This document shows positions 1-50,035 of a stretch of 64,000 bases of DNA, piece after piece. A program made the translations under genes and the position numbers. Under the pieces are notes generated by a model. The model saw only the letters and a program-made list of their open reading frames with translations. It was not told the origin of the DNA and did no database searches. Every line of letters starts with the position of its first letter. Position 1 is the first letter of the stretch. The stretch covers positions 1,397,501-1,461,500 of the forward strand of contig JACVVK020000005.1 of the NCBI GenBank assembly GCA_018292915.2, read 5' to 3'. Source of the stretch: Batillaria attramentaria. Lineage: Eukaryota; Mollusca; Gastropoda; Batillariidae.

Positions 1-3000
1 GCAGACTCATCATGCCTTTCTCCTCTTTGGTCCACTTGCTTCGTTCTGTCACGAGGCTTTTACCTTTGATCTTCGGCTTGTATCCGTACCATCCACTCGT
101 CGTCCTGTTAGACAGAAAAAGGTGCTTGTCTCATGGAAACAAATTCTGCTTCCTTTCTTGTGCTCGCTTACATGCAGCTGATCATGATTTCGAAAGTGGC
201 CTTCGCTTTTCATTATGAAACTGCCCATTAATGATTCTCAGAGTTCTGTATACATGCGGGGACGCATGACACTCACAGGCAGTTTGGCTAACTGGTTAAC
301 ACGGAGGGTAAGCTCGCGACGTGAGGCATGAGGAGCGCAGTCATATAACAAAGATGGCCCGTCAAAGGTAGGAGACAGGTAGGAACGTTCACGGCCGTGC
401 GAGGAGATGCGTGGAACGCACACTGTCTCGTACCCAGTGGACAATGCCTCAATGCTTTCTCATCGGAAATCGCGGACTCCTCGTAATCCTTCAAGTTACG
501 TGGTTATCCCCTGTGGTGAAGGCGTCCGCTACGGATTCTGAGATAGCTACGGATCCGTTGGGCAGGACTTTGGTGGGATTTTTCCTTTCCAGATCCGGGT
601 CAAAATTAATTCACTCGCAGGCACCGTTATGGCGCCTGTCTCGCACAAGCAAGTGTGCACGTTAGAAAATCCCATCCCAGACGTACACGAAACACGTACA
701 AGCAAAAAAACAACAACCAAAACACGTGTGGTGCACCGCGGGAAGAAGCCCTATTGAAGTTCCAATACTCCGATTTTGGACTGCAAGTTGTACATGTACC
801 GGTCACCAACCAATTACCAATGCGACCAAGAGCAACTGATAAATAAGGCGGGGACACAGCCGAGATTCACCCACTTCACGGGTGCGACTTTGGGGGTGCT
901 TCCCTTAGTATGACACGTCTTCTTATGATGTGGATGATTACACGGCCGGCACCGCAGGTGCCGTAGTTCCCGGGCCTGGTGAACGCCGGGACATTTATGA
1001 CAGGAAGCGTGGAAGGCGGCCCTGTCCTGCAGTGCCAAACCACACGGACCTCCATGGCATCATCTTACCATCATCCTCATCTCCATCCTCATGCATAATA
1101 AAAAAAATTGCCCCAGCTTTCGCCACCCATGACCTGGGAGGAACACCACTGGAGCTGGCAAAAAGAGTTGGGGCAGCAAAAAAAGAAAAAAAAAAAATAT
1201 ATATATAAATAAATAAATAAAATAAAAATAAAAACTAAGGCGGGTAAACGTGGTATCACCAAACCAAGGGCGTTTACCCGCCTTATTTTTTTCATGAAAT
1301 TGGGTAAAGCGCCTATACAATACTCATTATTATTATTATTATTATCATACCATACCAATACAGCATGCACATTTACTTGGGTATAGTGGTGACTGGCAGA
1401 TCATGGTCGATGGGCGGGAGGTGCAGCCTTCCTGACTTCTTTCTGGGGGGTGGCGGGTAGTACCAGCTGCGCCAGTTGTAGGGAGACATGGGCCTCTTCC
1501 CCTCCAAGGCCTCTCGCAGCTGCATGATTTATTCGCCGACCAGTTTTAGAAACCGACTACATACAGATATCATTGATTGTGGTAGGCAGGGCCCGTATGT
1601 AAAAGTAGAGGTTAATTTAACCCACGGCTACAGGCCTATCCCAGACTAGGACAAAAGAAACCCAAAAGCAAAATCAAATAAAAAGGAAGCGAAGAAAGGA
1701 TGAAAAAAAAAATCCTTCTATAACGGCTTAGGCACCTTGCTGGAAGGGGCCCTCTTCTTGGTTTAAAACAAAATAAAAATAATAATTTAAAAAAAAAAAA
1801 GCAGAAAATTTAACCCAAGAGGTAGTTTAGTTCGAGGTTAGACTCTAACCCGGGGCTAAAAGCCCTAAGCTCGACTATTACATACGGGCCCTGATCTTGT
1901 TTTTAACCTGTCGTGGCTCAAAAAGTGGAAATTGATGCTGTAACATAGCTAATGGTTATCACTCACTGACGCACATTTCGATTTCGGGTTCTTCAAACAA
2001 CACTATAACGGGACACCATTTAACTTTTTGAGGATGACGAGTCGAGCTGGACTGCTTATCGTAATGGGGGGGGGGGGGGGAGGGGAGGGAAGGGGGGGGG
2101 GCAGCACTTGAATGCCTGAGCGACTGGGTGGGTGTTACATGTAGCGGTTGAGTGACTGACTCACTCATCGGTTGACTGTGTGGTCGACGAAAACTGGAGC
2201 ACTGACGACTGTAGAAGAGGCGGGACTGACAAAAACAACGGTCAGTCTACCGAGCTGTATTCAGTTGAACCAGGCTCGTATCGTGAATGCGACCCATCAC
2301 GTGCAAAAACCTCAGACAAGGACGGAGAGTTCGTACGGGGATGTACCGGTAATGAGCAAATTTGCCGTTGCTGGTGTAGCCGAGTGGTTTGGACCCTCTC
2401 GCCCACTACCCTAGGTTCTCCGGCCAGCTGTGTGCCGCCGGCTTTGTTCGCCTGTAGGCTACCGCACGCGTGCAGCGTTGCGGATCCACGATAGCCACGT
2501 GTCAGTTAGTTGTGTTTGGTTGTGTCCATTTAGTGCAAAATATCTCGGCAGTCAATTAGCCTAAAGTTATCATTTAAACTATAGTAGTTTCGGAAGAGTT
2601 TGTACTTTTTAGTTATGTTTTGTTTTTAGCGCTGTTTTGTAGTTTAACGGGTGTATTTTGCCATTTTCACCACTTTTCGAATGCGTGGTCCCAGCCTTTA
2701 CGCTCTTAAATCGGCGATAGGAAATTCTTTGTACATTGATAATGTTCCAAACTTATGCCATCTTAGAGTACTTTTCACGCTCTTTTCAATGCAGTTTGTT
2801 TGAAGTTTGTAGCTGTTGTATTACGCCCGCTATTGTTAGTTTTCTGTGTGTAAACAAACACAGATTTCGCTGCTACCCGAGCATCTAGCCCTTGTTTCTG
2901 CTGCGAGCGGCCGTTGCTTTCTTTGCGGCTCGCGCTGAGCGCATAAGTAGCCGCGAGCTACGCCTCACTGGACAGTCGCCAGCCAGCCCTGCCGCGAGTC

Positions 3001-4381
3001 ACTGCACGGATTGTCGCTCTCCGCTCTGCCATTTGTTGCTGTTTTCCTGTTGAAATAAAACTCATGTCATAGCGACCTCTGTGTTTGGTCTCCCTGCCTG
3101 CCTGATTCACTCAACACCATCACACTGGCATTATCAAGAGCCGTATAACTAAGAGCTGGTCAGACACCATAGGGTCAGGTTCGCCTGGGCGAAACCCTCC
3201 TGAGCGGCCGGATGCCCTGCAGGTCAGTTACACAACGGTTCCTCGCCACGCCAGCCAACATCCAGTGACCGCGCACTACGCGCTTTGTGTAGTGTCCAGC
3301 ACCAGGCCGGCAGTGCGGTCCGCCCAGTGAACGCTGAGAGCGTGTGAACAGATAATCCACTCGGCGTCAGTGCGAGTTCGCTGCAGGCACTCAGCATGTG
3401 CAAAGGCTTTAGAACTGTTGGAGGTCCCAGCCTCCGGTCCCAAGACAGTCACGCTTGACTGATAATCCTCCATTCTCGTGATTTCGCAGGCCGCGATAAC
3501 TGGAAACGGGACCTGACAGACAACGAAAAGCTCGCCGCTTCCGCGGACATCGGCCTATGGGGCGGTCGGTGGTCTAGAGGTTAAGACTTTGTCACCAATG
3601 CGAGAGGCCAGGTTCGAGTCCCATTCGGGGCGAAGAATTTTTCTTTCTCGTATGTGGCACCGTTCATTCGTCGCCGTCGGGGATATATCTGATAGTCGGG
3701 GGTTCTTTCCGGGTACTCCGGCTTCCTCCCCCTCTGCTTTGGAAATGTTCAGCCCTCAAAATACAAAAATAAATGCAATTCTACAATTCCGAAACTTAAA
3801 TTGCTGACCTGGCCCTTCGCACCACGTGATTGTAATGTCAGTGTTCATGTCCAGTGTGTGAGAGAATGCGTGTGATTCACGTGAGCGTGCGTGTTGGATT
3901 CAGCTCGCGGCGCTTTAAGCCAAATATTTGGGATAAAGCACGTGTATTAATGCGCTTATTAGTATTATTATTATTATTGTAGCCCCTGAGCAGCTCTTAG
4001 TGATGTTGCGGGAGCCGGGGTGGTCGAATGGTAGAGCGTTGGACTTCTAATGCTCGGGTCGTGAGTTCGATCCCGGCTGGGGCTAAATATTTGTGCTGGC
4101 TTTTTCATCGTTGCCCCGTCTTTGATATCACCCTATGTGGTGGAAAAGGACGTTAAACCCCAAACACCCACTCTTAGTGATGTTGCTCGTGGTTAGGTAT
4201 AATACATTTTACCAGAGAAGGTGGCAGTAAGACGGAGAAAGTAAACTGAGACCAAACCTTTTTGTATTCGTCAACCAGGAAATTCCATCGCTCAGGCCAG
4301 ACTTTGTAAGCGGTGAGAGAACACTTGTCCACATGGACCCTCCTGTTAGACAGTGCACATAAATTCACCTTTGGAATTCGC

Positions 4382-4412
<31 letters not shown>

Positions 4413-5035
4413 TGTAATTTTAAAGTTTTATGACTGTGTTTCCCTAGGAATTATAGTTTCAAAGAACAAATCTGAAACGAGGCTACAAATAATTTTGCAA
4501 TGTGTGTCCAAAATACGAAGCATAAAGATGACGCGGCGCCTCAGTGTCTCGCCTTCGCCAGTGTACGCACGCACGCGCAGTATCAAGGGCGCACATTAAA
4601 CATCTCATTTTCAAACGGGTGGGGCTGTTGAATGAAAAACAGTTAACCAGCTTTACGACAAAACTGATGGCCGTGGTCACAGTCGTCACAACGGAAGAAA
4701 AAGAAGAAGATGCCCCCAACAAAATGAAGGCTATATCTCCGGCAAAACTGATGTTACCACGAGTGAAGACGCTCCATTCTTGAGCTGTGCTTCAGACAAG
4801 TTTCGACCCTTAGCCAAAGATAATAATTATGGTCTCTAGAGCCGTAGAAGAGTGAGATGGAGGAGAGCTGTTGAGGCCCTATGCTTCTCTAGGAGCCAAA
4901 AGGACTAAACTGAGAGCCGTAGAGATGGGCTGCATGTACGACGCGTCGTTTTGACAACATAGAAACTCACAGCAAATGGTCTAGTTCGACGTAGTTGAGG
5001 ACCGGTGGGGCCCGGGCCAGTCGCTCCTCCGCCAT
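1..5035 (-). CDS. Tandem paralogue C of a ciliary microtubule-inner-protein-like gene (3' end outside window)
   Basis: Coding exons read leftwards: 5035-4971, 4342-4258, 1519-1377 and 104 to beyond base 1. Phases are 2, 0 and 2, the same as in the two copies to the right, and all visible exons are open. The protein starts MAEERLARAPPVLNY. Exon 2 gives KVWPERWNFLVDEYKK, exon 3 gives MSPYNWRSWYYPPPPRKK, and exon 4 begins [16 protein letters not shown] and is cut by the window edge. Splice signals are good: GTGAGT after exon 1, TCTAACAG before exon 2, and GTAAAT after exon 3. The layout resembles the small C20orf85/C2orf50 ciliary microtubule inner proteins; that link rests on motif memory and is inference. 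This copy differs from its sisters in having DHLL where they have DKLW, so a likely anchor tryptophan is lost. An X-box lies 16 bp upstream of the ATG. A SINE and a MITE sit in its introns. Confidence 0.82.
498..700 (+). mobile_element. Degenerate SINE-E copy
   Basis: The order 'gtggtgaaggcgtccgctac', 'gggcaggactttggtggg', 'ggcgcctgtctcgc' and 'agtgtgcacgtt' follows the better copies at 37.0-37.7 kb, with many substitutions. It lies in the intron between copy C exons 3 and 4. Confidence 0.55.
853..1235 (+). mobile_element. SINE-C, 5'-truncated
   Basis: This matches the body of the full copy at 12424-12948, from 'cccacttcacgggtgcgac' through 'ggagctggcaaa...ggggcagc' and an A-rich tail. The 9-bp direct repeat TAAGGCGGG at 844-852 and 1236-1244 is the probable TSD. 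Confidence 0.75.
1236..1285. repeat. Perfect 15-bp inverted repeat
   Basis: TAAGGCGGGTAAACG at 1236-1250 faces CGTTTACCCGCCTTA at 1271-1285, leaving a 20-base loop. It directly abuts the SINE-C tail. Confidence 0.7.
1293..1347 (+). mobile_element. SINE-B 3' tail fragment
   Basis: It contains 'gaaattgggtaaagcgccta', 'tacaatactcatta' and a (TTA)n run, identical in layout to the 3' end of the SINE-B copies at 13.2, 49.9 and 57.7 kb. The tRNA-like head is missing. Confidence 0.6.
1590..1890. mobile_element. MITE-1 copy 1
   Basis: A non-coding element of about 300 bp with terminal inverted repeats GGCCCGTATGTAA...TTACATACGGGCC. Sister copies lie at 34518-34805 and 60737-61017. It is flanked by CAG on the left and CTG on the right; the other two copies have CAG on both sides. 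Confidence 0.8.
1891..2499. other. No gene supported
   Basis: Within copy C intron 2. It holds a short G-run at 2065-2100 and otherwise unique sequence. Short open frames lack splice signals or recognisable motifs. Confidence 0.5.
2500..3122 (+). mobile_element. Possible solo LTR
   Basis: The stretch starts TGTCAGTTAGTTG and ends CACCATCACA. In between it has a GC-rich promoter-like block with CATAAGTAG, then AATAAAACTCATG near 3053, in the order expected of a retrovirus-like LTR (promoter, poly(A) signal, end). The terminal TG...CA fits. No second LTR or protease/RT was found, so this is a weak structural call. It could instead be a promoter and poly(A) site of an unrecognised gene. Confidence 0.3.
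3560..3981 (+). mobile_element. SINE-B, near full length
   Basis: The head GGTCGGTGGTCTAGAGGTTA and the B-box-like GGTTCGAGTCCC derive from a tRNA. The body runs through 'ttccgggtactccggcttcc', 'aataaatgcaattctac' and 'cgtgagcgtgcgtgttgg' to a (TTA)n tail. Confidence 0.8.
4010..4170 (+). mobile_element. SINE-A, complete, young
   Basis: A tRNA-like head (GGTCGAATGGTAGAGC and GAGTTCGATCCC) is followed by 'atatttgtgctggc', 'tttgatatcaccc' and a GGACGTTAAACCCC end. A perfect 16-bp TSD, CTCTTAGTGATGTTGC, lies at 3994-4009 and 4171-4186. The element body reads identical to the copy at 39233-39397. Confidence 0.9.
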
Positions 5036-5050
5036 GATGGATAATCGCAC

Positions 5051-5064
5051 GTTGCTGTGGCAAC
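5051..5064 (-). promoter_or_regulatory. RFX X-box of copy C
   Basis: Read on the minus strand the site is GTTGCCACAGCAAC, which fits the published X-box pattern RYYNYY-N(1-3)-RRNRAC with a 2-bp spacer. It lies 16 bp upstream of the copy C start codon, inside a roughly 60-bp block conserved among all three paralogues. RFX transcription factors use such sites to drive ciliary genes. Confidence 0.72.
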
Positions 5065-5309
5065 CCTTGTCATTACAGTTGCTTCCCTTTCAGGGGCGGC
5101 AACTACGTTTATTAGGAATGATCGCACATGGTAGTGTTTTGGGGGTGAAATCAAATACACACGCACGCTAACACACACTAAACAATTCAACACAGAAAAA
5201 GGTTGTACGAGGTGTAAACAAAACTATTAGATATATATAACAACAACAAACAAATCAACAACTACAACAATTCACTAAGACAGTCATCGGCTTTGACAAA
5301 TGTCCGTTC

Positions 5310-5315
5310 TTTATT
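5310..5315 (-). terminator. Candidate poly(A) signal for copy B
   Basis: TTTATT on the plus strand is AATAAA on the coding strand, about 130 bp past the copy B stop codon. Several more lie in the T/A-rich stretch 5330-5370. Confidence 0.4.
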
Positions 5316-5446
5316 TCATATTTTTAATATATTTATTCATTCATTTATTTATTTATTTCCCAATAAAATACTAGCGAATACAACACATACAAAAGCATAT
5401 ATATAGATATACATATAAAATTAGTTCTTTTGAAAAAAATCGGACG

Positions 5447-7436
5447 TCAGTCATAAATATCAGGCCAGCCAAACTTCTTGTGTAGACTAGTAATGCCTGT
5501 CTCCACTTTCGTCCATTTGCACCGTTCGGTCACCAGACTTCGGCCTTTGATCTGCGGCTTGTGTCCGTACCATCCGGTCGTCGTCCTGTTAGAAAAAAAA
5601 AAGGAAAAAAAAACCAAAAAAAACAAAACAAAAAAACCCAAAGAAAACCCAATGAAAACAAATATGTCTCCATTTGTGTGCTCTTTTTTTTTTCGTGCAG
5701 CTGACGTGTAATGAAATCAAAAATTGACCACAGCTTTTGAATATGAACATGTCCGTCACTGAATCTTAGAGTGATTTGAATACATGCACGGTTTTAATGC
5801 TGCCATCGTCGTTGCTTTGTCGGACGCTTGGTAGCTACGCCAAAAACTGAAACGTCTCGTAGTGTCTCTAAAACCACTGATCATTTGTGTATAAACATAC
5901 AATATAATTATGCGCATATACTTGGGTATAGTGGTGGCTGGCAGATCATGGTCAATAGGCGGGAGGTAGATCCTATGACCCTTCTTCCTCGGGGGTGGCG
6001 GGTAGTACCAGTTGCGCCAGTCATACGGAGACATCTTCCTCTTCCCCTCCAAGGCCTCTCGCATCTGCATAATTCAGTCACCGACCAGATATGGACACTG
6101 ACCACACGGGTTTCATCGTCTTGTCATGGCAGGTATTTTGTGCTGGTTTGTTGGTTGTTGTTTTTGTTTGTTTGTTTTTTTGGTTTTTGTTTTTTGTTTG
6201 TTTTATTTTTGATAAAGGCGCTAGTTCTGATATTTCTATGCTTTACAGAAGACAACTTTGCTCTGAAACAGTGGACCTTGTGAGTGAGCCGGCAGGCAAG
6301 GAACAGTCTATCTCAATCACAATGACAAATACAGTTTGGAAAAACAATGCACTGACATGTAGCGTTACTCCTCTTGAGAGGAAGCCACACCCAATCTCTG
6401 TATCAAAATATAAACCGTTTCCAACCCGTACAACAGTTTATTGAGTCATCGGGTCGCTTCGCCATTTAAATGTCTATACTTTACGATAATCTTATGTCCA
6501 CGCGGACGGGCAGTTGCCACCACCAACTCACTACCACTTGCAAACACTCAGAGAGGTTGAGCGTTTTTGGTTTGTTTGGTTGTTTTTTTTTACGGGGATC
6601 ACGGGGAATAAACAAAACGGATGGGCATTTTTTTCCTGCCGCTTCCAAGCCGTAGGATTCTCATTTCAGTTGGCGTTCTTCCACGCCACAGCACCGCGTT
6701 TTTCCAGCGGCAGACTCTCAAATTCAAAAATTCTTCCTACAAAACAACAACAACAACAACAAACCTGCTTTGGGATTTCCGCCTGTCGATAAGAAACAGG
6801 CTGGGGAATAGCTGAAGGGAAAAAAGACTGAAACACAGATCGGGGTGCAGGGGAAGCACCCAGATGGGGGATCTGGGGAGGAGAGAAAATGAATGTTAGC
6901 AATTTTAGAGGCGTTTAGTGGCCTCTCTCCTGGCACCCAAAAGTAATGTGACATTAACACCTGACGTTTACTTCGGCAGAAACTTTTTTTTTTTTTTTTT
7001 TGCTGAAAAGATATGAAATTTGGCTGAAAATTGCCAAATGACTGAAAATTCCCCACCCTGAAGAAAGAATGATGGAGGACAACAAAGACGATGTCTGAGG
7101 CGCATCTCCAACATCCGATGGCCAAAGAAGATCCGAAACGAAGAGCTGTGGGAGCGAGCAGGACAGGAACCAGTGGCCAAGCAGATCCTGCGGAGGAAGT
7201 GGGGCTGGAGTGGACACACCCTCAGGAAGCCAGCATCCAGCACCACACGCCAACCCCTGACATGGAGCCCGCAGGGGAAAAGGAAGAGAGTCCGGCCTCA
7301 CGACAGCTGGAGGCGGGACACTGAGGCAGAGCTATGTAGGACTGGAGTGGCAAGAATAGCCCAGAACAGAGTGCGATGGCGAAGGGTCGTCGATGGGCTA
7401 TGCTCAACTTGGAGCCATGGGCCTAAGTAAGTAAGG

Positions 7437-7471
<35 letters not shown>

Positions 7472-7536
7472 GAAGTGAGTAAAGAAGGAAAGAAGGAAGG
7501 AAGGAAGTAAGTAAGTAAGTAAGGAAGTAAGTAAGG

Positions 7537-7571
<35 letters not shown>

Positions 7572-7696
7572 GAAGTAAGTAAGGAAGTAAGTAAGTAAGG
7601 AAGTAAGTAAGGAAGGAAGTAAGGAAGTAAGTAAGGAAGTAAGGAAGGAAGGAAGGAAGGAAGGAAGTAAGTAAGTAAGTAAGTAAGGAAGTAAGG

Positions 7697-7736
<40 letters not shown>

Positions 7737-8468
7737 GAGGAAGTGAGTAAAGAAGGAAGGAAGGAAGTAAGTAAGTAAGTAAGGAAGTAAGTAAGGAAGT
7801 AAGTAAGGAAGTAAGTAAGGAAGTAAGGAAGTAAGTAAGTAAGGAAGTAAGTAAGGAAGGAAGTAAGGAAGTAAGTAAGGAAGTAAGGAAGGAAGGAAGG
7901 AAGTAAGTAAGTAAGTAAGGAAGTAAGGAAGTAAGTAAGTAAGGAAGTAAGTAAGGAAGTAAGGAAGTAAGTAAGTAAGTAAGTAAGTAAGGAAGGAAGG
8001 AAGTAAGGAAGTAAGTAAGTAAGGAAGTAAGTAAGTAAGTAAGGAAGTAAGTAAGTAAGTAAGGAAGGAAGTAAGTAAGTAAGGGAGTAAGTAAGGGAGT
8101 AAGTAAGGGAGTAAGTAAGGGAGTAAGTAAGGAAGGAAGGAAGGAAGGAAGGAAGGAAGGAAGGAAGTAAGGAAGGAAGTAAGGAAGGAAGGAAGTAAGT
8201 AAGGAAGGAAGGAAGTAAGGAAGGAAGTAAGGAAGGAAGTAAGGAAGGAAGTAAGTAAGGAAGTAAGTAAGTAAGGAAGTAAGTAAGTAAGTAAGGAAGT
8301 AAGTAAGTAAGTAAGTAAGTAAGAAAGTAAGGAAGTAAGTAAGAAAGGAAGTAAGTAAGAAAGGATATAAGTAAGTAAGTAAGTAAGGAAGTATGGAAGG
8401 AAGTACGTAAGGAAGGATATAAGTAAGTAAGTAAGTAAGTAAGGAAGTAAGGAAGGAAGCAAGTAAGG

Positions 8469-8503
<35 letters not shown>

Positions 8504-9651
8504 CAAGGAAGTAAGTAAGGAAGGAAGTAAGTAAGTAAGGAAGTAAGTAAGTAAGGAAGTAAGTAAGTAAGGAAGTAAGTAAGGAAGTAAGTAAGTAAGG
8601 AAGTAAGTAAGGAAGTAAGGAAGTAAGTAAGAAAGGAAGTAAGTAAGAAAGGAAGTAAGTAAGTAAGTAAGTAAGGAAGTAAGTAAGTAAGGAAGTAAGG
8701 AAGGAAGTAAGGAAGTAAGTAAGTAAGTAAGGAAGTAAGTAAGGAAGTAAGTAAGTAAGTAAGGAAGTAAGTAAGTAAGGAAGTAAGTAAGGAAGTAAGT
8801 AAGGAAGTAAGTAAGTAAGGAAGTAAGTAAGTAAGGAAGTAAGTAAGTAAGGAAGTAAGTAAGTAAGGAAGGAAGTAAGTAAGGAAGTAAGTAAGGAAGT
8901 AAGTAAGTAAGGAAGTAAGTAAGGAAGGAAGTAAGTAAGGAAGTAAGTAAGGAAGTAAGGAAGTAAGTAAGTAAGGAAGTAAGGAAGTAAGTAAGGAAGG
9001 AAGTAAGGAAGGAAGTAAGTAAGTAAGGAAGTAAGTAAGTAAGGAAGTAAGTAAGTAAGTAAGGAAGTAAGTAAGTAAGAAGAAGGAATGGGGCCGATTA
9101 TGAACAAGAAAACAACTGATACAGTTCAGCACTGAGCTCGGCGAAGAATCACGTGCTTCTCGTTTGCGCAGCGTGCAGGGCACCTCAGTTCTGAGCTGGA
9201 GTATTCTAGCTGAGTCCCGAAAACATTACCACAATCTAAAGGTATGTGCATATTATATACTCATATTTCAACATAACGGGCTTTTCGAAACTTTTGAAGC
9301 GGCAGGGCACCGGGAAAACGCCCGTCCATCTTGCTTAATCCCCGTGGGGGTGGGGGTGAGGGGTGGGGGGGGGGGGGGGAGTGCGGCTGAGGAAATTTGA
9401 GTCGCTCAATCAGTGACGATTTTACAGGATAAAGGTGACAGTGATAAAGACGGGGGAAAAGTGAAAGACACCAAACCTTTTTGTATTCGTCAACCACGAA
9501 AGCCCATCGGTCAGGCCACACATAGTATGCGGTGAGGGCACACTTGTCCACATCGACCGACCTGAAAGACAATGCACATAAACTGACCTTTTGTGAATCG
9601 CGCGCGTTTGTGTGCGTGTGTCACTGCGTGCGTGCGTTCGTGCGTGCGTGC

Positions 9652-9682
<31 letters not shown>

Positions 9683-10669
9683 GTACTTCACTGTTTGTTG
9701 TTGTTGTTTTTTGATATAGGTGTGGAATTTTACAGTTTTATGACTGGAGTTTTAAAAAAGAGAAAGTCAGTTTAAGTTTTAAAGAAAAATATCAATATGA
9801 AACGAAGCTCTGAGGAGAGCAGTACCCAAAATGCGATCAATCAAAATTTGCTCCCAACAAAACGTATCATAAAGGAACCCATTTTCGTCGGCATTTAGAA
9901 AAATACCGCAGCATTTATGAAGTGTGGAATGCGGAACAAAGTGTGTGATGCATGATCGACATCGCAGGTATCGTCGCTACTCCTTGAGCCGGTGTGTTAG
10001 TAAATTATCGAACGTTACGGTCAGGACAGTTTATCGGCGGCGGTCATTCCAAGAGTGTTATGCGGTCCGTTGCCTTCTCGGAAGACTCGTTTTACTCGGT
10101 TCTGCGGTTACTCTAGGCCACACGTTATTATCGCTCCTCAGCGCACACACCAGACCAGGGCGACGATAGGAACTAATCATGCAAACAGACTATAACAGTG
10201 AGAGAGCGGTGCGCAACCTACCAGCGGGCGGCCAGCTCCGCTTCGGTGGTGTGCGCCATCTTGGATCTCTCTCTCTCTCGTGTGTCTTCGGTAGTTTCCG
10301 TCAGTAGGTTACCGACCACACAGGCGTGAGATGCTGGTGTTTACTCTTAAAACGTTATGTGAATCGATGTGGATTTGTTTCTTTCCGATCAGCAGTGAAT
10401 CCCTTTAATGCGTTGCCGAAAATAGGTTCCACCGGGTCAGTTATGTCTCAGAATTTTACTGGCTTGAAACGGCAAGACCGACGCCACTCTATTTTTGCAC
10501 TGACTGTGCTTCAGATCATCTTCAACCGTTAGCAAATTTTAAAGTTTAGCAGTATACGTGGTCTGCAGCCAAGGAAGGCCATTACGTCCAGCAGTAAAAC
10601 TCACCACAGCTTGTCATGGTCGACATAGTTGAAGACAGGCGGGGCCCGGCGAAGTCGCTCCTCCACCAT
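5447..10669 (-). CDS. Tandem paralogue B of a ciliary microtubule-inner-protein-like gene (complete)
   Basis: Four coding exons read leftwards: 10669-10605 (65 bp), 9561-9477 (85 bp), 6064-5922 (143 bp) and 5585-5447 (139 bp). They sum to 432 bp, 143 residues plus TGA, with exon lengths and phases identical to copy A. Exon 1 is MVEERLRRAPPVFNY followed by VDHDKLW; exon 2 contains YVWPDRWAFVVDEYKK; exon 3 contains MSPYDWRNWYYPPPPRKK; exon 4 ends [13 protein letters not shown]. There is no signal peptide or membrane span, and the protein is basic and rich in aromatic residues and proline, as expected of a filament- or tubule-lining protein. By motif order (DxLW, W-P-x-R-W-x-F-L, late GW...GWP) it resembles the C20orf85/C2orf50 ciliary family; this is inference. 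Intron 2 is 3.4 kb because it holds a MITE, a retrotransposon end and a 1.65-kb AAGT array. An X-box precedes the start codon. Confidence 0.88.
6797..7060. mobile_element. MITE-2 copy, inverted and internally deleted
   Basis: The ends CAGGCTGGGGAAT...ATTCCCCACCCTG form the terminal inverted repeat. TSD AAGAAA is at 6791-6796 and 7061-7066. Internal blocks such as 'ctggcaccc' and 'ggggtgcag' match the copies at 30.6 and 56.0 kb read backwards. Confidence 0.78.
7061..7432 (+). mobile_element. Non-LTR retrotransposon 3' end (RT C-terminus)
   Basis: The translated pieces EELWERAGQEP, KWGWSGHTLRKP and RVRWRRVVDGLCSTW are the RT C-terminal tail common in invertebrate LINE-like elements. Other 5'-truncated copies are at 31862, 33640 and 40304. 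The element ends in 'gggcctaagtaagtaagt'. Small frame breaks show it is inactive. Confidence 0.8.
7424..9079 (+). repeat. 1.65-kb (AAGT/AAGG)n tetranucleotide array
   Basis: It is an unbroken run of AAGT and AAGG units with rare AAGA, AAGC and ATAT variants. It begins exactly at the AAGT tail of the adjoining retrotransposon, so the tail probably seeded the expansion. The long open frames it produces in every frame of the minus strand are artefacts of the repeat. It lies in intron 2 of copy B. Confidence 0.95.
10222..10259 (-). CDS. Candidate alternative first exon of copy B
   Basis: On the minus strand CAAGATGGCGCAC opens a 12-codon frame, MAHTTEAELAAR plus TG, followed at once by the donor GTAGGT. 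It ends in phase 2, exactly the phase of the regular copy B first exon 350 bp upstream, so it would splice in frame into exon 2 (TG+G gives Trp, as in DKLW). No equivalent was found in copies A or C. It could instead belong to an unrelated transcript or be chance. Confidence 0.35.
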
Positions 10670-10684
10670 GATGAACGATAACAG

Positions 10685-10698
10685 GTTACTATGGTGAC
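10685..10698 (-). promoter_or_regulatory. RFX X-box of copy B
   Basis: The minus strand reads GTCACCATAGTAAC, a match to the X-box pattern, 16 bp upstream of the copy B ATG. It differs from the copy A and C sites at several bases, yet every change stays within the consensus, which argues for selection on the site. Confidence 0.68.
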
Positions 10699-11234
10699 CT
10701 TTGTCATTACAGTTACTTCCTTTCAGGGGCGGCAACTACTCTTTTTTTATTATGGAGTGATCGTACATGGATGTATACATGTAGTTTTATAAAGGTGAAA
10801 TCAACAAATCGACGCAAGCACACAACACGTTAAATCAAAGACTGTAAGGTTTCTTTTTTTACTCTAGGCGAAAATGAAGAGCACAAATGTTCTTCTAAAG
10901 GCGAACAATGAAAAATACACGTGATATTTCCAAAAAGTGTCGCAAAAAAAATACTCACATCGAAATAAAACATTGACAGAAGTCAATAAATGTCAGCAAA
11001 GACTCACTGATAGGTGTAAACAAAACTGCTAAAACAATCAATCAATCAATCAATCAATTAATCACTAAGTCGGCCATCGGCGTTGACCAATGACCATTAT
11101 AATTATTTTTTTAATTGTTATTAATTTTTCGTTATTAACCTTTTTCGGGGGCAAAAATAAAGCAACACCTAAACTGTTCATACATGTACTCATAGATTTA
11201 AAAAAAGTAAAAGTTAAAAAGAATAGTAATAAAT

Positions 11235-13545
11235 TCAATCATAAATATCAGGCCAGCCAAACGCCTTGTGTAGACTAGTGATGCCTGTCTCCACTTTCGT
11301 CCACCTGTTCCGTTCGGTCACCAAGCTTTTCCCTTTGATTTTCGGTTTATATCCGTACCACCCGCTTGTCGTCCTGTTGTGGTAACAAACAGCATGAATA
11401 ATAATAATAATAATATATATTTTTTATCGTCGACTCTGCGAGACGCTCTGGGCGTTTTACAAGGGTGGGTGGGTGGGTGTTTGGGAGTTTAACGTCCTTT
11501 TCCACCACATAAGGGTGATATCAAAGACGGGGCAACGAGAAAAAAGGCCAGCACAATTATTTGGCCCCAGCCAGCGGAATTCGAACTTACGACCCGGGCC
11601 CCGGGCGTTTTACCAAAAACAAAAATGTATACATAAGTAAGTAAACAAATGATCAGTCAGGGCAAATAATCAGGTAAAAAAAGTGAGTAATGAGTATTCA
11701 GTAAATAAATGACCAGTCATATAAGAACGCACATAAAAGCATGCATACAAACACACGGTAGCGGTCTTTCAGCCTTTCAAAGCGTAGGCATTGAGGGAGT
11801 AAGCGAACGAGTCAATGTCAATTACTTAATTCTGCTGGATTGGACTGCATAATTTCGATGCCATACGCTCACAACATGCACATTTACTTGGGTATAGTGC
11901 TGGCTGGCAGATTATCGTCTACGGGCGGGAGGTAGATCCTGTGGTCCTTCTTTTTGGGGGGTTGCGGGTAGTACCAGTTGCGCCAGTTATAAGGAGACAT
12001 CTTCCTTTTCCCCTCCATGGTCTCTCGCATCTGCATAATGTATTCACCATTCAGCGATCGATTTCAGAAAGTGACTATACAGATGTCATCTCTCATGGTA
12101 GCACCCCCCTCCCACCCCCACCCCCCACCCCCTCACCTTCGTCAATATTTCAAGATGATCACTAATCTTCAATGAAAGACAACATCTGGTGTGGAGTAGT
12201 CGCGCTTGTACACGGAGAGCGATCAAAATGGGACGACCTTTTTTTCTGTTGCTATGCAATGCCGCTTCCAAAGTTTCCACGGCTGTCCTCATCTAAAGCC
12301 GATAGTTTTAAACGTGAGCATATACACATCTGTAGATTGTAGTAACATATCAGCAGAAGTCGGCTTCTGGTTGATAACCATAGAACCAGTCTTTTTAACC
12401 GACACCTGAAAATCCAAAGCGTACCGGTACCCGTAGTGTAGTTGTTAGCACTTCGGACCATGGACCAGGATACCCGGTTCGAGTCCCAGCCGAGGCAAGC
12501 GGGATTTTTTCTACCTAGGTCGGCCCCTACCCAGAGCGGATGTGCTATGGACCCAATGGGGAGGCTGTTGCCACATAGTCGAGTTTCACCCACTTCACGG
12601 GTGCGACTTTGGGGGTGCTTCCCTTGGTATGACACGTCTTATGATGTGGACGATTACACGGCCGGCACCGCAGATGCCGTAGTTCCCGGGCCTGGTTAAT
12701 GCCGGGATATTTATGACAGGAAGCGAGGAATGCGGCCCTGTCCCGCAGTCCCAAACCCCACGGACCTCCATAGCATCATCTTACCATCATCTTCATCTCC
12801 ATCATCATTGCCCCAGCTTCCGTGCCCTCCGTGGATTCTACCCATTACCTGGGAGGAACACCACTGGAGCTGGCAAAGAGTGGGGGCAGCAAAAAAAAAA
12901 CCAAAAAAAACCCAACAACAACAAAAATAAAATAAAAAAAAATCCAAAGCGTATTTCCGGGGCTGCGGCGTTTTGAATTTGGAAATAGCGGCCGATCGTC
13001 GGGAGTTCTCTCCGGGTACTCCGGCTTCCTCATCCTCTACTTTGGAAATGTTCAGCCCACAAAATGTGAAAAATAAATGCAACTGTAAATTCTGAAACTT
13101 AAATAGCTGAACTGACCCTTCGCACCACGTGATTGTATTGTGTCCTTGTCCAGCGTGTGATTCACATGAGCGTGCGTGTTGAGTTCAGCACGCGGCGCTT
13201 TGAGCCAGTTCAAGAAACTGGGGTAAACGCACCCACACAATATACAGTTATTATTATTGTCATTATTAAAATGGGGTGGAGCGCGTATGGGCTTATCCGA
13301 GCGCATACTGACTGAAGTAACTGAACTAAACTGACTATAAAAACGTCAGAAAAAAAAGGGGGAGGGGGGGGGGGTGGAAGGGAACCAAACCTTTTTGTAT
13401 TCGTTGACCAGGAAAGCCCATCGTCCGGGCCAGACATGGAACGAGTTGAGGGAACACTTTTCAACATAGGCCTTCCTGGTAAACAAAGCACATCAATTGA
13501 CGTCTACAAATAAGCTGGTGTGTGACAGTGTGCGTGCGTGCGTGC

Positions 13546-13622
<77 letters not shown>

Positions 13623-13625
13623 TGC

Positions 13626-13678
<53 letters not shown>

Positions 13679-13689
13679 TGTGTCGTGTG

Positions 13690-13728
<39 letters not shown>

Positions 13729-13967
13729 CGCGCGCGTGTGTGTGTGAGTGTTCCTTACTACGCAGATATGTGTGTCGTTTACACAGACATTTCAGAATCT
13801 GACGAGATTTTTGAGGTTGTGCGTCAATGTGACGCATGATTTTCACAACTTGAAAACCAAAAGTAAAGACAATGATCACTGGAATTGGCAGCAGCAGAGA
13901 AACCTGCCCTGGTCCTCGGTTTTCCGATTCATGAATCACAAGTCAAAGCACGTATAGTCTTCGACGA

Positions 13968-14022
<55 letters not shown>

Positions 14023-14045
14023 GTGTGTGTGTGTGACAGTGTGTG

Positions 14046-14103
<58 letters not shown>

Positions 14104-14111
14104 GGTGGTGT

Positions 14112-14147
<36 letters not shown>

Positions 14148-14346
14148 GTGGGTGTTTGGGTGTTTAACGTTCTTTTCCACCACGTACAGGTGATATCAAA
14201 GACGGGGCAACGATGAAAAAGCCAGCACAAATATTTGGCCCCAGCCGGAATGCTAACTCACGACCGAGACAGAAAGACAGAGAGAGTCATGGTGTTTCGC
14301 TCACATTTTTCTATGTACATGCAGAATTTAATGTTTTCAACCACGA

Positions 14347-14380
<34 letters not shown>

Positions 14381-14713
14381 AAGGGAGGCGGGGGGGGGGG
14401 GGGGGGGGGGGGGCATGCACTCGATTCTCAAATAGAACGCCTTCAACAAGTGGACTGCTTGGTAAAACATAGTTATCCCAGGGACCCTAGATCTGTGATC
14501 CTGGCCTATACTCAGAAGGAGTTCGCTGGAATTTCCCGCGCATAGATCGCTACAGTTTTACGGTGAGCATAAACGCAACTGATTCAGTCGTTGAACATAA
14601 TGATCTGCACGCAAGGCATCTCACTTTGATCTCAGCATCAAAACTCACCATAATTTGTCACTGTCGGCAAAGTTATAGACCGCAGGGGCCCGTTGCAGTC
14701 GTTCAAGCGCCAT
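11235..14713 (-). CDS. Tandem paralogue A of a ciliary microtubule-inner-protein-like gene (complete)
   Basis: Four coding exons read leftwards: 14713-14649, 13475-13391, 12030-11888 and 11373-11235. Joined they give 143 residues and TGA with no internal stop. Exon 1 reads [15 protein letters not shown] then ADSDKLW; exon 2 holds [17 protein letters not shown]; exon 3 holds [18 protein letters not shown]; exon 4 holds [16 protein letters not shown] and ends [13 protein letters not shown]. The start was chosen because the ATG lies at the same place in all three copies and is followed by E/LERL...RAP. Intron 2 holds a full-length SINE with its TSD. Exon 4 here and in copy B are very similar in DNA, whereas exons 1 and 2 differ more, so either constraint or gene conversion acts on the C-terminus. 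Function as an axonemal microtubule inner protein is inferred from motif layout plus the RFX X-box. A lineage-specific gene of another ciliary role is the main alternative. Confidence 0.88.
11462..11610 (-). mobile_element. SINE-A, truncated in the tRNA head
   Basis: It reads backwards from GGGTGTTTGGGAGTTTAACG through 'atcaaagacggggcaac' to 'gaacttacgacccgggc', where it stops short of the A-box. Confidence 0.75.
12424..12948 (+). mobile_element. SINE-C, full length
   Basis: The head is CCCGTAGTGTAGTTGTTAGC with the B-box GGTTCGAGTCCC, followed by a roughly 400-bp body and an A-rich tail. The perfect 15-bp TSD AAAATCCAAAGCGTA is at 12409-12423 and 12949-12963. This copy defines the family. 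Confidence 0.88.
12973..13270 (+). mobile_element. SINE-B, 5'-truncated
   Basis: It begins inside the body ('cgatcgtcgggagttctctc') and ends with (TTA)n. The tRNA head is missing. Confidence 0.7.
13520..13750 (+). repeat. (GT)n microsatellite cluster
   Basis: Long GT runs are interrupted by GCGCG and TCGTGT units. They extend from copy A exon 2 into its first intron. Confidence 0.95.
13969..14142 (+). repeat. (GT)n then (GA)n microsatellite
   Basis: Two GT blocks are followed by about 14 GA units, directly left of a SINE-A copy. Confidence 0.95.
14147..14265 (-). mobile_element. SINE-A, head truncated
   Basis: It runs from GGTGGGTGTTTGGGTGTTTA through 'ggccccagccgg' to 'ctcacgaccgag', where the tRNA-like A-box is lost. 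Confidence 0.7.
14344..14414. repeat. poly(A) then poly(G) run
   Basis: About 32 A followed by a G tract of about 23. Assembly errors are likely here. Confidence 0.9.
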
Positions 14714-14725
14714 GTTGCAAGATAG

Positions 14726-14739
14726 GTTTCTATGGCAAC
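14726..14739 (-). promoter_or_regulatory. RFX X-box of copy A
   Basis: The minus strand reads GTTGCCATAGAAAC, a near-ideal X-box, 13 bp upstream of the copy A ATG. Further upstream, at 14741-14780, lie a conserved GGAAGT (ETS-like) and a GCCGCCCC (GC-box-like) that are also present in copies B and C. Confidence 0.75.
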
Positions 14740-14847
14740 CTTGTCATTACAGTTACTTCCCTTTCAGGGGCGGCAACTACGTTTATTGTGGGTTATCGCA
14801 CGTGGCCCGAAATGTTTTGGTGAAATAAAAAAAAATTAAAGGCACGG

Positions 14848-15124: not shown

Positions 15125-18100
15125 TTAAAGCTGTGCAAAGGAACTCGAAGAAGACGAGTCCGCACCGGGTGGGGTTGGCCACTGAGAAGAGGGTGGAGGG
15201 TGGGGGAAGAAAGGGTTTGTCAACGATGAGATCATGACGGGTTTGTAAGAGTCCGCTACGCTGCCCATAGAAACGATAGGCCCGAGGTGTGGCGGGGTGG
15301 GAGGGGGTGGATGGGTGGGCCAGTGAGCCGGAGTGCGCAGCGAGTCGTGCTGGTGCAAGCTGGACAGCACGATAGGAGGGTCAGCGATGAAAGGAAACGG
15401 GAAGACGCGGTTCATTGCGAGGGAAGGAGTCGGCAAAGCCACGCCGTTGTGGTGGGAAGCCGGGCTGAGAGCGTCCGGTAGCTTGGGTTTCCCGTCCCCG
15501 CCGACCCCCAGGACAGAACTCTGGGCCTGAGCCGAGTCCCGCGCAGCCGCGGAGGCGGACTCCAGGTGCTGGCGGTAGCTGAGGAGGTCGGACAGCACGG
15601 GAAGACTGTCGTGCACGCCTGGACTCTGACCAACCGAACCCAGCCCCATCCCCATGCTTGCCAGTCCGCGCGCGGCGTTGGCGTGGTGGTGGTGGTGGTT
15701 CAGGTCATTAGCCACAGCCCCACTCATCTGCTGACCGAACCCAGCCCCCTCCAGCCCCTCCCAGGGGAAGCGAGGAGCGCCGGCTGACATCAGCAGACCG
15801 TCCGTGCGAGCGTCCCGCGGGCTGCTGAAAGCGGACGTGTTGTGAGAGTGGTGGAAGCGGTTAGCTGCTGTGTTGAGGAAGGCGGTGGGCGTCACCTTGT
15901 TTGGAGGAGCCACCATGTCATAGGTGTGGAACAGCCTGCCCGTGACAGAGGGCGGCCCACCAGAACCGGACCCACCCACCCGCTGCCCCACCACCACCAC
16001 CACCACCACCACCACCAAGGTGCCCACCACCACCGCCGCCGCTGCGTCCCGAGGATGAAGACGAATGGTGGGATCTGTGTTTGTTCTTTTTCCTCTTCTC
16101 CTTCCGGGATTTGAGGTTCTCGTTGCTGAATCGTCCAAGTTCCGAAATGACACTCCGTACCACAACGTCTGGTACCATCTTAGCCTGTCCTGAATCACCC
16201 TTGTCTCCGCCACCCCCTCCACCATCACCACCACCACCTTTACCACACACACTTTTCCCACGTGAATTTACTCCACTGTCCGCGTCGCCAGAGTCTGCAC
16301 TGTGGTTCTCGTGGCGTAGCTCCGAGGGGCTGCCCTGGCCCGTGTCGTTGATGGGTGAGCAGGACGTGCTTGTCTTGCTGGAGGTTGTCGTTGTCAGTGG
16401 GGAGGACGAGGACGTGGGATTACTCTGGGACGTGTCTGTTTTGTCGGACGATGTCGTCTGCTTGTCGCCGGTCTTGCTGCCGCCAACCACATCTTTCCGT
16501 CGTCGGTTTTGGAACCAGATCTGAAAATTAACAATGATAACGTTTATGAGCAGTTATTAGGTGAGTTAAACAATGATTCAATCCTTTCTGAGAACGCTCA
16601 GTACTGTCCTGCCCATGATGCTCTACCAAGTCAAACCTTGCCAGAGGGCGCAGGGCTATACAGGTGCAGCTTTGGTGGTAGCCGTCATGACCTGGAGAAG
16701 ACCGTGGAATTCGTCATGGCGACCGGGCTGCAGATCTGACGTGACCAGTCAAATCGGCAGAAGCAGAAGAAGATTTCTGAGAAAGCCATTCAAGAAATGC
16801 GTGGATATAGACAACATATAATGAGAATCCTGCTCTTCTTCTTCAATTATCGACCTTCCTGTTTTAAGTTACCGGGGAAAATCCAGCATCTGGGAGGCTT
16901 ATGGCTACACACAGGAAGGCGTAAACAAAGAAACAGACTCTGAGAGTACATGCACATGAGCCCATAATTCCTGATCGACAAACCTTGACTTGTTCTCGCG
17001 TGATTCCCACGCGCTTGGCGATGAGCTGTTTCTGGACGCTGTTCGGGTAGCGCACCTCATTGTAAATACCGTTCAGCAGCTCCAGCTGGTACCGAGTGTA
17101 GCTCAGCCTCTCTCGGGGTGGGGGTGGAGTGAAAGGGCGGTAATCTGAAACAGAAACCAACAAGATCAATTAATCAGTCTGTGTGGCATCAGTGCAGTCC
17201 CCTTCTGAAATACTGCATATCTTGCCTACCTTTTCAACAATGCTACGAGTATGCGTCTAGCTAGGGGCATCTGACAGAGACGAGACTAACTAGCATGCGT
17301 CTAACTCGAAAGTGTCCAGATCGGATGCGTCTGTCTGGGAGCGTCTTGATGGGACAAATCTAACTGGGATGCGTCCAACTGGGGGCATCTAACGGAGACA
17401 AGACCTAACTAGAATGCGTCTAACTCGAATGTGTCCAGCTCGGGTGTGTCTGTCTGGGAGCGTCTTGACGGGACAAATCTAACTGGGATGCGTCTAACTG
17501 GGGGGCATCTAACGGAGACAAGACCTAAATACAATGCGTCTAACTGGAATGTGTCCAGCTCGGGTGCGTCTGTCTTGCACCGTCTTGATGGGACAAATCT
17601 AACTGGGATGCGTCCAGCTTGGAGCATCTAACTGGGACAAGATTCACTAGAATATTAGCTGGGAACGTTTACGGGGGATATATATATATACCTAACTGGG
17701 GTGCGTCTAACTGGAAACCCAGGTCCCCAGTGACAGCGATCTTCTGGAGGCACTCACCTTCATCCTCATCCTCCTCAGACCCATCCCGTTCCGGACCTGC
17801 TTGCACGCTGGGTCCGCTCTGTGTCCAGTGTACCACAACGTGACCGCCTACCCCCTCGGGCCCTTGTGGCTGACCCCCTGGGCCCGGCCGTGGGGGCGGG
17901 GCCGCTGGAGGGAGGTGCATCGTCGGCAGGCCCGACCCCCCTCTGAGCTGTGTGTCATACAGGGGCGATCCTGTGAACAGAAGAAAATTAGAAATATCAT
18001 TGTGCACATTTGGGTGGGTAAGTGGGTGGGTGGGTGTTTAACGTCTTTTTCCACCACATTCGGGTGATATCAAAGACGGGGCAACGATGAAAAAAGCCAG

Positions 18101-19298: not shown

Positions 19299-22235
19299 AT
19301 GCCCGGCCTAAATCAGTTTCGGCATTTTAATTACATTGGCGTCGTAAATTTGTAGTACATTAATTAGGATCGAACCATCAACAGTCCGGTTGCTGTACAC
19401 AAAATACTTCCAGAACATGCTTCAGAGGAGGAAACACACTTTTGCGGCCGGGGGGGGGGGGGGGGGGGGTAGCCAAAGATGGAAATCCGGCGAAAGGTGG
19501 ACAGTTTTAAGCCCTGGCTATCCAAACCCACTCAACCCGGCCACGTCATCGACAACCCTACTGAGTCTCCGGCAACTTGAGAAGAGCGGCGTGCGACCGA
19601 AGGATCCCACGTGGGAAGTGCTCTTTTCAAAAGTGCCGATCAAACGCAGTTAGGCAGATTGCGAGGCGATACTCCACAATGAGCGTGTTTGAAGCGCAGC
19701 GCGTTAACCCCAATTTCCCCATGGTTGCGCAACGTTCCCTTTGTCACTCGAGCCCTGATGAGTGGGGTACCTGTCGAGACCCTGCCTCCGGCCGATCTGT
19801 TGCCTGTCACGCTATGGTGATTTCCGGGGTCGGTGGACCGTGTCCGGTATGAACCTTTGTTCTCCTCTCGAGATTTTTGGTACATGTATAAGTTACCTTT
19901 CTTTGGGAAGGACACGATTTTGTCTTATTCCCATGCATAGGTGTTATTTTTATTTTTTTCTACATGTAGTTGTATGAACAAGTAAAAAAAAACAAAACAT
20001 AGGGTGGGTGGGTGGGTGTTTAGGAGTTTAACGTCCTTTTCCATCACGTACGGGTAATATCAAAGACGGCGCAACGAGAAAAAGGCCAGCACAAATATGT
20101 GGCCCCAGCCAGAAATCGAACTCACGGCCCGAGAATAATGAGTAAAAAAAGAACAAGTCTATTTGCACATACAGGGACATTCTCAACAACGACAGTGGGG
20201 AAAATTGCTAAGAGCTGGTATGGAGTGCATATGGGCTTTTCCGAGCGCAGTGATACCATTTTGAGCTGAGAGACATTACCTAATATGTGTCCCTGCACAC
20301 TAGCAGGTCATACACAATACTAATGTTCTCACCAAGGGGTGAAATTTCCCCAGAGACATAACTTAGCTTAAAGTGCGGTTCAAGTGTTACTTTTATCTAT
20401 GAAGGTGACAATTTCACACCCTCGAGCGTTAATTGCATTTTGCAGCTCTTGGCACTTCTTAAGTAGATGCGCCAGCTTAATGTATTCTTAATGTACGCTT
20501 TGTTAAAGTGTGGTATAGCTGTCACTGCGTGTACATAATGCACACAGTACCAACGTAAGTTTAATTAGTTTAATTTTAGGATGGCTACGCTCAGTAAATA
20601 TCTATGAAGGTGACAATTTCACACCGCCGAGTGTTAATGACATTTTGCAGCTCTTGGCGTTTGTTAAGTAGATGCGTCAGCTTAATGCATTCTTAATGTG
20701 CGCTTTGTTTAAAGTGTGGTTTAAATGTCAGTGCACACAGTACCAAAATAAGTTTAATTTTAGGATCGCTACGCTCAGTAAATATCTATGAAGGTGACAG
20801 TTTCACACCCTTGAGTGTTAATTACATTTTGCAGCTCTTGTCGTTTCTCAAGTAGGTGCGTCAGCTTAATGTATTCTCTTTTTTGTTGTTGTTGTTGTTG
20901 TTGCTGCCCCAACTCTTTTTTCCAGCTCCAGTGGTGTTCCTCCCAGGTCATGGGTGGAATCCACGGAGGGCTCGAAGGCTGGGGCAATTATTATGCATGA
21001 TGATGGAGATGAGGATGATGGTAAGATGATGCTATGGAGGTCCATGTGGTTTGGGACTGCGGGACAGGGCCGCATTCCACGCTTCCTGTCATAAATATCC
21101 CGGCGTTCACCAGGCCCGGGAACTACGGCACCTGCGGTGCCGGCCGTGTAATCATCCACATCATAAGACGTGTCATACCAAGGGAAGCACCCCCAAAGTC
21201 GCACCCGTGAAGTGGGTGAAGCTCGGCTGTGTGGCAACAGCCTCCCCATTGGGCCCATAGCACACCCACTCTGGGTAGGGGCCGACCTAGGTAGGAAAAA
21301 TCCCGCTTGTCTCGGCTGGGATTCGAACCCGGGTCTCCCAGTCCATGGTCCGAAGTGCTAACCACTACACTACGGGGGCCGGTGCTTAATGTATTCTTGA
21401 TGTACGCTTTGTTAATGTGTGGTTTAGCTGTCCGTGCACACAGTACCAAAGTAATTACTTTAATTTTAGGATCGCCACGCTCAGGAAATATCTATGAAGG
21501 TGACAATTTCACACCCCCGAGTGTTAATGACATTTTGCAGCTCTTGGCGTTTGTTAAGTAGATGCGTCAGCTTAATGTATTCTTAATGTACGCTTTGTTA
21601 AAGTGTGGTTTAGCTGTCAGTGCGTGTACATAATGCACACAGTACCAAAGTAAGTTTAGTTTTAGGATCGCTACGCTCAGATACCAAATATATTTGTTAA
21701 AGTGGTTTGTCCGTAAAGTTAATGAAGTTGAATTTACATTCGCTACACTCAAAGTAAAACAGCCAGTTGGAGTTTTGTGACTTTTTTTTTTTGGGGGGGG
21801 GGGGGGGTGTTTGGGAGTTTAACGTCCTTTTCCACCACATATGGGTGATATCAAAAGACGGGGCAATGAGAAAAAGGCCAGCACAAATATCCCCAGCCGG
21901 GATTCGAACTCACGTCCCGAGCATTGAAAGTCCTACACTCCACCATTCTGCTATCCCGGCTCCCTGTCGAAGATGGGGGAATATGAAAAAAATTCGGCAC
22001 AAATAATTTTGCTCTCAACCGGGATTCGAACTCATGACCCGAGCACTGACGGTCCAACGCTCATCGGGGGTTTCTCTTCGGGTTATCCGGCTTTCCTCCC
22101 CCAGCAAAACTGGAAAAAAGATATAGGATAGGTATTGGGTGGCGCTGCACCGCGGCGACGCGCTTCCCCCGAGGGGAAGCAGCCCGAATTTCCCGAAAGG
22201 GGTAATAAAGTAGTCAAAACACACACACACACACA

Positions 22236-49571: not shown

Positions 49572-50008
49572 GAACGGTCTTTGGTCTAGTGGTTAAGACG
49601 TCGTCACCAATGCGAGAGGTCAGGTTCGAGTCCCGCTTGCGGCAAAGGACGTTTCCTTCTCGTTTTTTTGGCATCGTTCATCAAGTTCAAGTTCGGGCGG
49701 ATCGTCGGGGGTTCTCTGTCCCTGTATTCCGGTTTCCTCCCCCTCTGCTTCGGAAATATTCAGTCCACAAAATTAGAAAATAAAATGCAATTCTAAATTC
49801 CGAAGGTTAAATTGCTGAGCTGACCCTTCGCACGTGACAGGATTGTAATGTGTTCATGTCCAGTGTGTGAGAATATGCGTGTGTTTCACGTGAGCGTGCG
49901 TGTTGGGTTCACTGAGCCGGTTCGCACTTCGCAGCGCTTTGAGTTAGTTGAATAAATTGGGTAAAGCACCTACATAACACACAATTATTATTATTATTAT
50001 TATTATTC
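49572..50008 (+). mobile_element. SINE-B, full length
   Basis: From GGTCTTTGGTCTAGTGGTTA to (ATT)n, with the complete body. Confidence 0.82.
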
Positions 50009-50035
50009 TTTTATTTATTTAATTTTTGCACCACT

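Follow-up and report, generated by a model that had tools for sequence, protein, structure and literature searches.

We analysed a 64,000-nt stretch of DNA (hereafter the window, C2:1397501-1461500) from the caenogastropod Batillaria attramentaria (Cerithioidea), whose 715-Mb draft genome comprises 863 contigs, C2 being 5,657,558 bases long. At the left end of the window lies an array of three tandem, intact-looking protein-coding genes, A, B and C, which belong to a rapidly evolving branch of the LLC1 family (C20orf85/CIMIP1) that is distinct from the canonical gene. Very probably, judging from family membership and promoter sequence, their products act as microtubule inner proteins in motile cilia or in sperm, and the genes are putatively driven by RFX factors.

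Structure, family membership and extent of the array

All three genes lie head to tail on the minus strand, in the order C (14713-11235), B (10669-5447) and A, which begins at 5035 and runs past the left window edge (Table 1). Their exons measure 65, 85, 143 and 139 nt in B and C and 65, 85, 143 and, up to the edge, 104 nt in A, in agreement with the equal exon lengths, matching phases and open frames reported in a preliminary description of this DNA, and GT..AG borders flank all nine introns. Copies B and C each encode 143 aa followed by a stop, while A remains open for 132 aa to the window edge, with no internal stop in any copy; record P0002 supplies the full C terminus of copy A, which ends in the same block as B and C.

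The preliminary description had proposed a likeness to C20orf85 and C2orf50 and a Pfam search with the spliced products. We found that all three spliced proteins exceeded the curated cut-off of PF14945 (LLC1; 27.3 bits), scoring 46.5 (C), 43.3 (B) and 43.7 (A) bits at E values of 7e-11 to 7e-12, and that LLC1 was the sole Pfam family above its cut-off. Matches in the PDB pointed the same way for C20orf85: the best were 9v10_Ea (E 2.8e-5, copy C) and 8snb_1f (E 0.0017, copy B), the C20orf85 chain 8otz_P followed at E 0.023 and 0.55, and every other match stood at 0.2 or worse, such that only C20orf85/CIMIP1 chains matched better than E 0.03. When a 19-row family profile was compared with the PDB, these same three chains were the only ones to match at E <= 1, and none of them did so with an E value above 1.6e-27. 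The doublets in these entries are from sperm of mouse (9V10), cattle (8OTZ) and sea urchin (8SNB), as stated in an excerpt of PMC13066092. Of the two relatives suggested, C20orf85 is the one supported by these searches; according to the grouping in the available part of PMC10973386, C2orf50 and other SNYG-module proteins have only that short module in common with the array.

The same part of PMC10973386 groups C20ORF85 with SNYG-module proteins that contact alpha/beta tubulin at the inner microtubule wall, and gives the motif as [ST]-N-x-x-[ILVY]-G. Among the 19 aligned family rows, the final G of the motif is present in every one and the leading T in 18. The array block, T-[ST]-G-W-Y-G within PKTT[ST]GWYG, fits the motif at every position except the N.

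Exons 1 and 2 are missing from the public gene models of B and C, and none of the records P0001-P0003 (these two models and the window-encoded record of A) reaches the LLC1 cut-off; because of these missing exons, domain annotation does not reveal the array. The donor of intron 2 reads GTTTGG in all three copies, and this is perhaps one cause of gene predictors missing the first two exons. Within intron 2 of copy B, a TTCC/TTAC tetranucleotide repeat of ~1.6 kb (about 7425-9085) gives rise to spurious long open reading frames. Literature searches on C20orf85/CIMIP1 as a microtubule inner protein or as a duplicated gene turned up no such array.

The coding parts of A, B and C are under purifying selection. 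Nucleotide identity between the coding sequences is 77-82%, amino acid identity is 76% (A-B), 67% (A-C) and 74% (B-C), and the synonymous distance (dS) between copies is about 0.4-0.6. Ratios of nonsynonymous to synonymous distance (dN/dS; Nei-Gojobori method, NG86) were 0.40 for A-B, 0.42 for A-C and 0.28 for B-C, with all values from three methods falling within 0.28-0.42. Codon bootstrapping gave 95% ranges of 0.25-0.68, 0.26-0.76 and 0.15-0.49 for the same pairs, and a ratio of at least 1 arose in 0, 1 and 0 of 400 draws, respectively. In blastn comparisons of copy with copy, the exons matched along with flanking sequence that reached about 120 bp at most, and so did roughly 100 bp of promoter; within the introns, B and A share one 27-nt piece of intron 1, and C and A share three pieces. 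All three C-A pieces belong to dispersed repeats with further copies elsewhere in the window and in the genome; repeats of this kind are about 75-90% alike and also occur on contig C89 and other contigs. The earlier statement that selection has held the exons while the introns diverged is thus correct, since, exon flanks aside, the intron matches are dispersed repeats with the exception of the single 27-nt piece.

It had also been suggested that the array might extend beyond the left edge. The array does not visibly do so: in the 35 kb of readable left flank (C2:1357501-1392500, ending 5 kb short of the window) we saw no convincing further copy, the best of the weak matches having an E value of 0.8, and the remainder of exon 4 of A is expected on that side. 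A protein search of the whole genome returned 16 matches at E <= 10, of which 12 fell on C2 within the array's own exons (E <= 8.1e-5 for 10 of them; 0.31 and 1.52 for the other two, both in exon 1), and nothing outside the array at E < 0.05. We judged the other four matches (on C6, C62, C537 and C189; E 0.05-5.6) to be due to chance, and three of them contain stops. A small-database tblastn of these four loci gave E values of 4e-5 (B-L020) and 1.3e-4 (B-L022), which we discounted because the loci had been picked beforehand from the whole genome.

A separate canonical gene and the history of the subfamily

Canonical CIMIP1 occupies a separate locus on a different contig from the array. A profile search of the genome returned two matches among four candidates, both of them exons of one canonical CIMIP1 gene on C89, and the protein encoded by exons 2-4 of this gene matches BaRGS_00014956 at 100% identity over 99% of its length. 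Introns 1 (phase 2) and 2 (phase 0) have the same place and phase in the array and in the canonical gene, the canonical intron 1 being known on C89 from its acceptor only. In the array, intron 3 has phase 2 and lies elsewhere. The LLC1 profile runs over most of the length of the array proteins, as in BaRGS_00014956 and its mollusc orthologs, and the common blocks are an N-terminal D-x-[IL]-W, a WPxxWxFL-type block and a TT-(x)-G block of the SNYG type, whereas SPYxWRxWYYPxPP and the FGWPDIYD end are, in this comparison, seen in the array only. The array also comprises three tandem copies in place of a single locus. Given a separate Batillaria canonical gene that is 82% identical to its Littorina counterpart but only 22-26% identical to the array, and a Littorina grouping of their own (below), the array genes are not one-to-one orthologs of CIMIP1.

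A protein search with copy B alone found only Batillaria records (three of seven candidates). A profile built from copies A and C together with a sea urchin fragment recovered six proteins at E <= 10 among 74 candidates, namely the three Batillaria array records, P0050 of Littorina saxatilis and two sea urchin long forms. Our tree held 24 rows: 18 of 46 family matches (28 were dropped by choice), three profile matches and A, B and C. The array and P0050 grouped with 100/100 support, which places this uncharacterized Littorina protein in the array's subfamily. A, B and C themselves grouped at 96/69, below the mark for strong support and in a tree that carries a long-branch warning, and the subfamily was tentatively linked to the sea urchin long forms (75/11). 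One of these long forms, LOC105441157 (the sperm doublet chain 8snb_1f), is a non-canonical LLC1 member whose N-terminal NWPERWGFITNEYTRM block is array-like, and which differs in being 206 aa long with a long insert.

P0050 stands for one cluster of two member sequences and differs from the array in a longer middle and another C terminus. After KWTK, that C terminus has no match to the FGWPDIYD block of the array; the public model may have its last exon wrong.

Approximately unbiased (AU) tests gave a p-AU of 0.11 for placing the array with the caenogastropod canonical rows. With P0050 kept in the group, joining it to the Batillaria canonical protein was not rejected (p-AU 0.21), nor was joining it to ten gastropod canonical rows (0.087), and joining it to the Batillaria and Littorina canonical proteins was at the edge (0.047). 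Forcing P0050 out and joining the array to the Batillaria canonical protein gave p 0.00088, a value we disregarded as uninformative on the joining point because that constraint also broke the link to P0050.

Canonical and array-type genes occur in both snails, which should make the subfamily older than the split between Batillaria and Littorina, and the triplication is probably younger than that split, unless gene conversion mimics such a pattern. If orthology is assumed, identity between the two species is 50-53% in the subfamily versus 82% in canonical CIMIP1, and Kimura distances are about 0.72-0.80 versus 0.21. The preliminary description held that such proteins are normally single-copy. 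This is not strictly so: the canonical gene persists at its own locus, and the array is a separate subfamily shared with Littorina. Two different records of canonical type, P0007 and P0009, are found in Nucella lapillus, so even the canonical gene may have more than one copy in some species.

Promoter sites and neighboring features

The conserved proximal promoters each contain an X-box-type site, GTTGCCATAGAAAC in C, GTCACCATAGTAAC in B and GTTGCCACAGCAAC in A, all beginning 26-29 bp before the ATG. Two of the three (A and B) match in full the consensus GTNRCC N0-3 RGYAAC, as quoted in the parts of PMC10530576 and PMC5752003 available to us, and the site of C is one base off. Without mismatch, GTNRCCNNRGNAAC occurs three times in the window, always at these promoters, compared with a mean of 0.64 in shuffled windows (at least three in 8 of 200). 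A relaxed X-box with a 0-3 base spacer occurs six times, three of them elsewhere, and in 0.22% of 60-nt stretches of the window when the array promoters are left out. The four positions that vary among the three sites all coincide with positions at which the consensus itself is degenerate (p 0.015). When one mismatch was allowed, the motif was no commoner than chance (17 versus 14.2), and the looser form RYYNYY N1-3 RRNRAC was uninformative (70 observed, 115 expected). Nearby, the block GTAGTTGCCGCCCCTGAAAGGGAAGTAACTGTAATGACAA (about 14741-14780, with counterparts before B and A) is nearly unchanged in the three copies and contains two more RFX-like half sites, GTTGCC and AGTAAC.

Directly upstream of copy C, a homeobox gene lies at 15125-17144 on the minus strand (Pfam Homeodomain, 7.9e-17), with DUX4 and other homeodomain chains as its best PDB matches. 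It consists of two overlapping open reading frames, and its frame appears shifted in a glycine-rich tract near 15980, apparently through a sequence error or because an intron was left out of the model. Scans for Rfam families and tRNAs gave no match anywhere in the window.

Table 1. Coordinates of the array, its promoters, the canonical gene and dispersed repeats (window positions unless a contig is named)
Feature	Position	Strand	Remarks
Copy C, X-box-type site	14726..14739	-	begins 26 bp before ATG; one base off consensus
Copy C, conserved proximal promoter	14714..14805	-	counterparts 10670-10770 (B), 5036-5131 (A)
Copy C, exon 1	14649..14713	-	65 nt
Copy C, exon 2	13391..13475	-	85 nt; phase-2 and phase-0 borders also in canonical CIMIP1 gene on C89
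Copy C, exon 3	11888..12030	-	143 nt
Copy C, exon 4	11235..11373	-	139 nt including stop; public model BaRGS_00001718 is part of exon 3 plus exon 4
Copy B, X-box	10685..10698	-	begins 29 bp before ATG; full consensus
Copy B, exon 1	10605..10669	-	65 nt
Copy B, exon 2	9477..9561	-	85 nt
Copy B, exon 3	5922..6064	-	143 nt
Copy B, exon 4	5447..5585	-	139 nt including stop; public model BaRGS_00001717 is exons 3-4 plus extra intron residues at the join
Copy A, X-box	5051..5064	-	begins 29 bp before ATG; full consensus
Copy A, exon 1	4971..5035	-	65 nt
Copy A, exon 2	4258..4342	-	85 nt
Copy A, exon 3	1377..1519	-	143 nt
Copy A, exon 4	1..104	-	first 104 nt; window edge cuts the rest
Canonical CIMIP1, exon 2	C89 1035576-1035657		
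Canonical CIMIP1, exon 3	C89 1041524-1041643		
Canonical CIMIP1, exon 4	C89 1045939-1046097		
Dispersed repeat, C intron 2	13266-12573		blastn
Dispersed repeat, A intron 2	3922-3691		blastn
Dispersed repeat, A intron 3	1345-854		blastn
Dispersed repeat outside array	20883-21232		
Dispersed repeat outside array	49700-50788		
Dispersed repeat outside array	57015-57236		

Likely functions and rival explanations

We infer from these sequences that the exons are spliced as described, that the genes are expressed in ciliated cells or sperm, that the products reach the microtubule lumen and that A, B and C may divide labor among them. Most likely, RFX control would bring about transcription of all three in cells building motile cilia or flagella, and the 143-aa products would then line the doublet microtubules of the axoneme on the inside, where two blocks, the N-terminal WPxRWxF and the SNYG-like PKTT[ST]GWYG, could contact tubulin. 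The array products might act beside ordinary CIMIP1 or in its place.

Several observations weigh against this interpretation. The array proteins are only 22-26% identical to Batillaria canonical CIMIP1, they lack the canonical TPIEKYIKV block and their C terminus is different. In the array, another residue takes the place of the N in the SNYG consensus, as also happens in the canonical members, and copy A has Leu at the join of exons 1 and 2 where aligned relatives have Trp. An AlphaFold model (mean predicted local distance difference test score, pLDDT, 52; predicted template modeling score, pTM, 0.24) was not usable, such low confidence being uninformative. Two of the four strict X-boxes in the window (0-3 base spacer) lie elsewhere, at 10121 and 59692, and the counts of four strict and six relaxed sites were each reached in 10 of 200 shuffles. 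Because the three X-boxes share ancestry, they represent retention of one ancestral site rather than three independent gains. Finally, we did not find canonical exon 1 in C89:990000-1035576, so the canonical promoter could not serve as an X-box control.

The subfamily may alternatively serve sperm flagella only, perhaps split between eusperm and parasperm, with canonical CIMIP1 left to epithelial cilia, a possibility we entertain tentatively. Cerithioids produce both fertilising eusperm and non-fertilising parasperm, and fast change is common among reproductive proteins. The low identity of the subfamily relative to canonical CIMIP1 in the same species pair fits this idea, although relaxed constraint can also give fast change, and a divergent long member of the family is part of sea urchin sperm doublets. 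For a few axonemal proteins, sperm paralogs replace epithelial ones, as an excerpt of PMC11779644 reports; however, the available part of PMC13066092 lists mammalian CIMIP1 as shared rather than sperm-specific. A sperm role for the array proteins is attractive, yet plausible only. A further possibility, about as likely as the sperm-only one, is that A, B and C are duplicates with redundant functions whose constraint has partly relaxed, retained through drift or dosage and lacking separate roles. Their moderate dN/dS values, the Trp lost from copy A and the near-identical promoter cores would suit such redundancy, but the reading frames, splice sites and X-box-type sites of all three copies are intact, which counts against it, since a dS of about 0.4-0.6 represents time enough for a free copy to decay.

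We consider it improbable that the array proteins, as true family members, have left the cilium for a non-ciliary role. Their low identity to canonical CIMIP1 and their other C-terminal block could be read in this way, yet X-box-type sites are retained in all three copies and the LLC1 scores lie above the cut-off. An assembly artefact, in which haplotypes or assembly errors split one gene into three, might be suspected in a draft of 863 contigs. However, the copies sit on one 5.66-Mb contig, their introns are largely unrelated and their coding sequences differ by 18-23%, which is far beyond allelic difference, and this explanation is therefore close to refuted.

We thus favor the view that A, B and C encode microtubule inner proteins that work in motile cilia or sperm. 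New here are the X-box-type sites, the separate canonical locus, the Littorina member of the subfamily and the lack of a convincing further copy in 35 kb of left flank, and the array illustrates that genes of this kind can be overlooked when families are counted from annotation. Microtubule inner proteins are usually viewed as a slowly changing scaffold. A bolder and, on present evidence, unlikely proposal is that caenogastropods maintain a second lineage of CIMIP1-like proteins, one that evolves fast, serves sperm axonemes and was tripled in Batillaria, and that would furnish each sperm type or axoneme section with other luminal proteins; if true, the "fixed" doublet lumen would have diversified through tandem gene duplication. 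With a divergent branch and three intact tandem genes in hand, the diversification of luminal proteins by sperm type or tissue in snails becomes testable.

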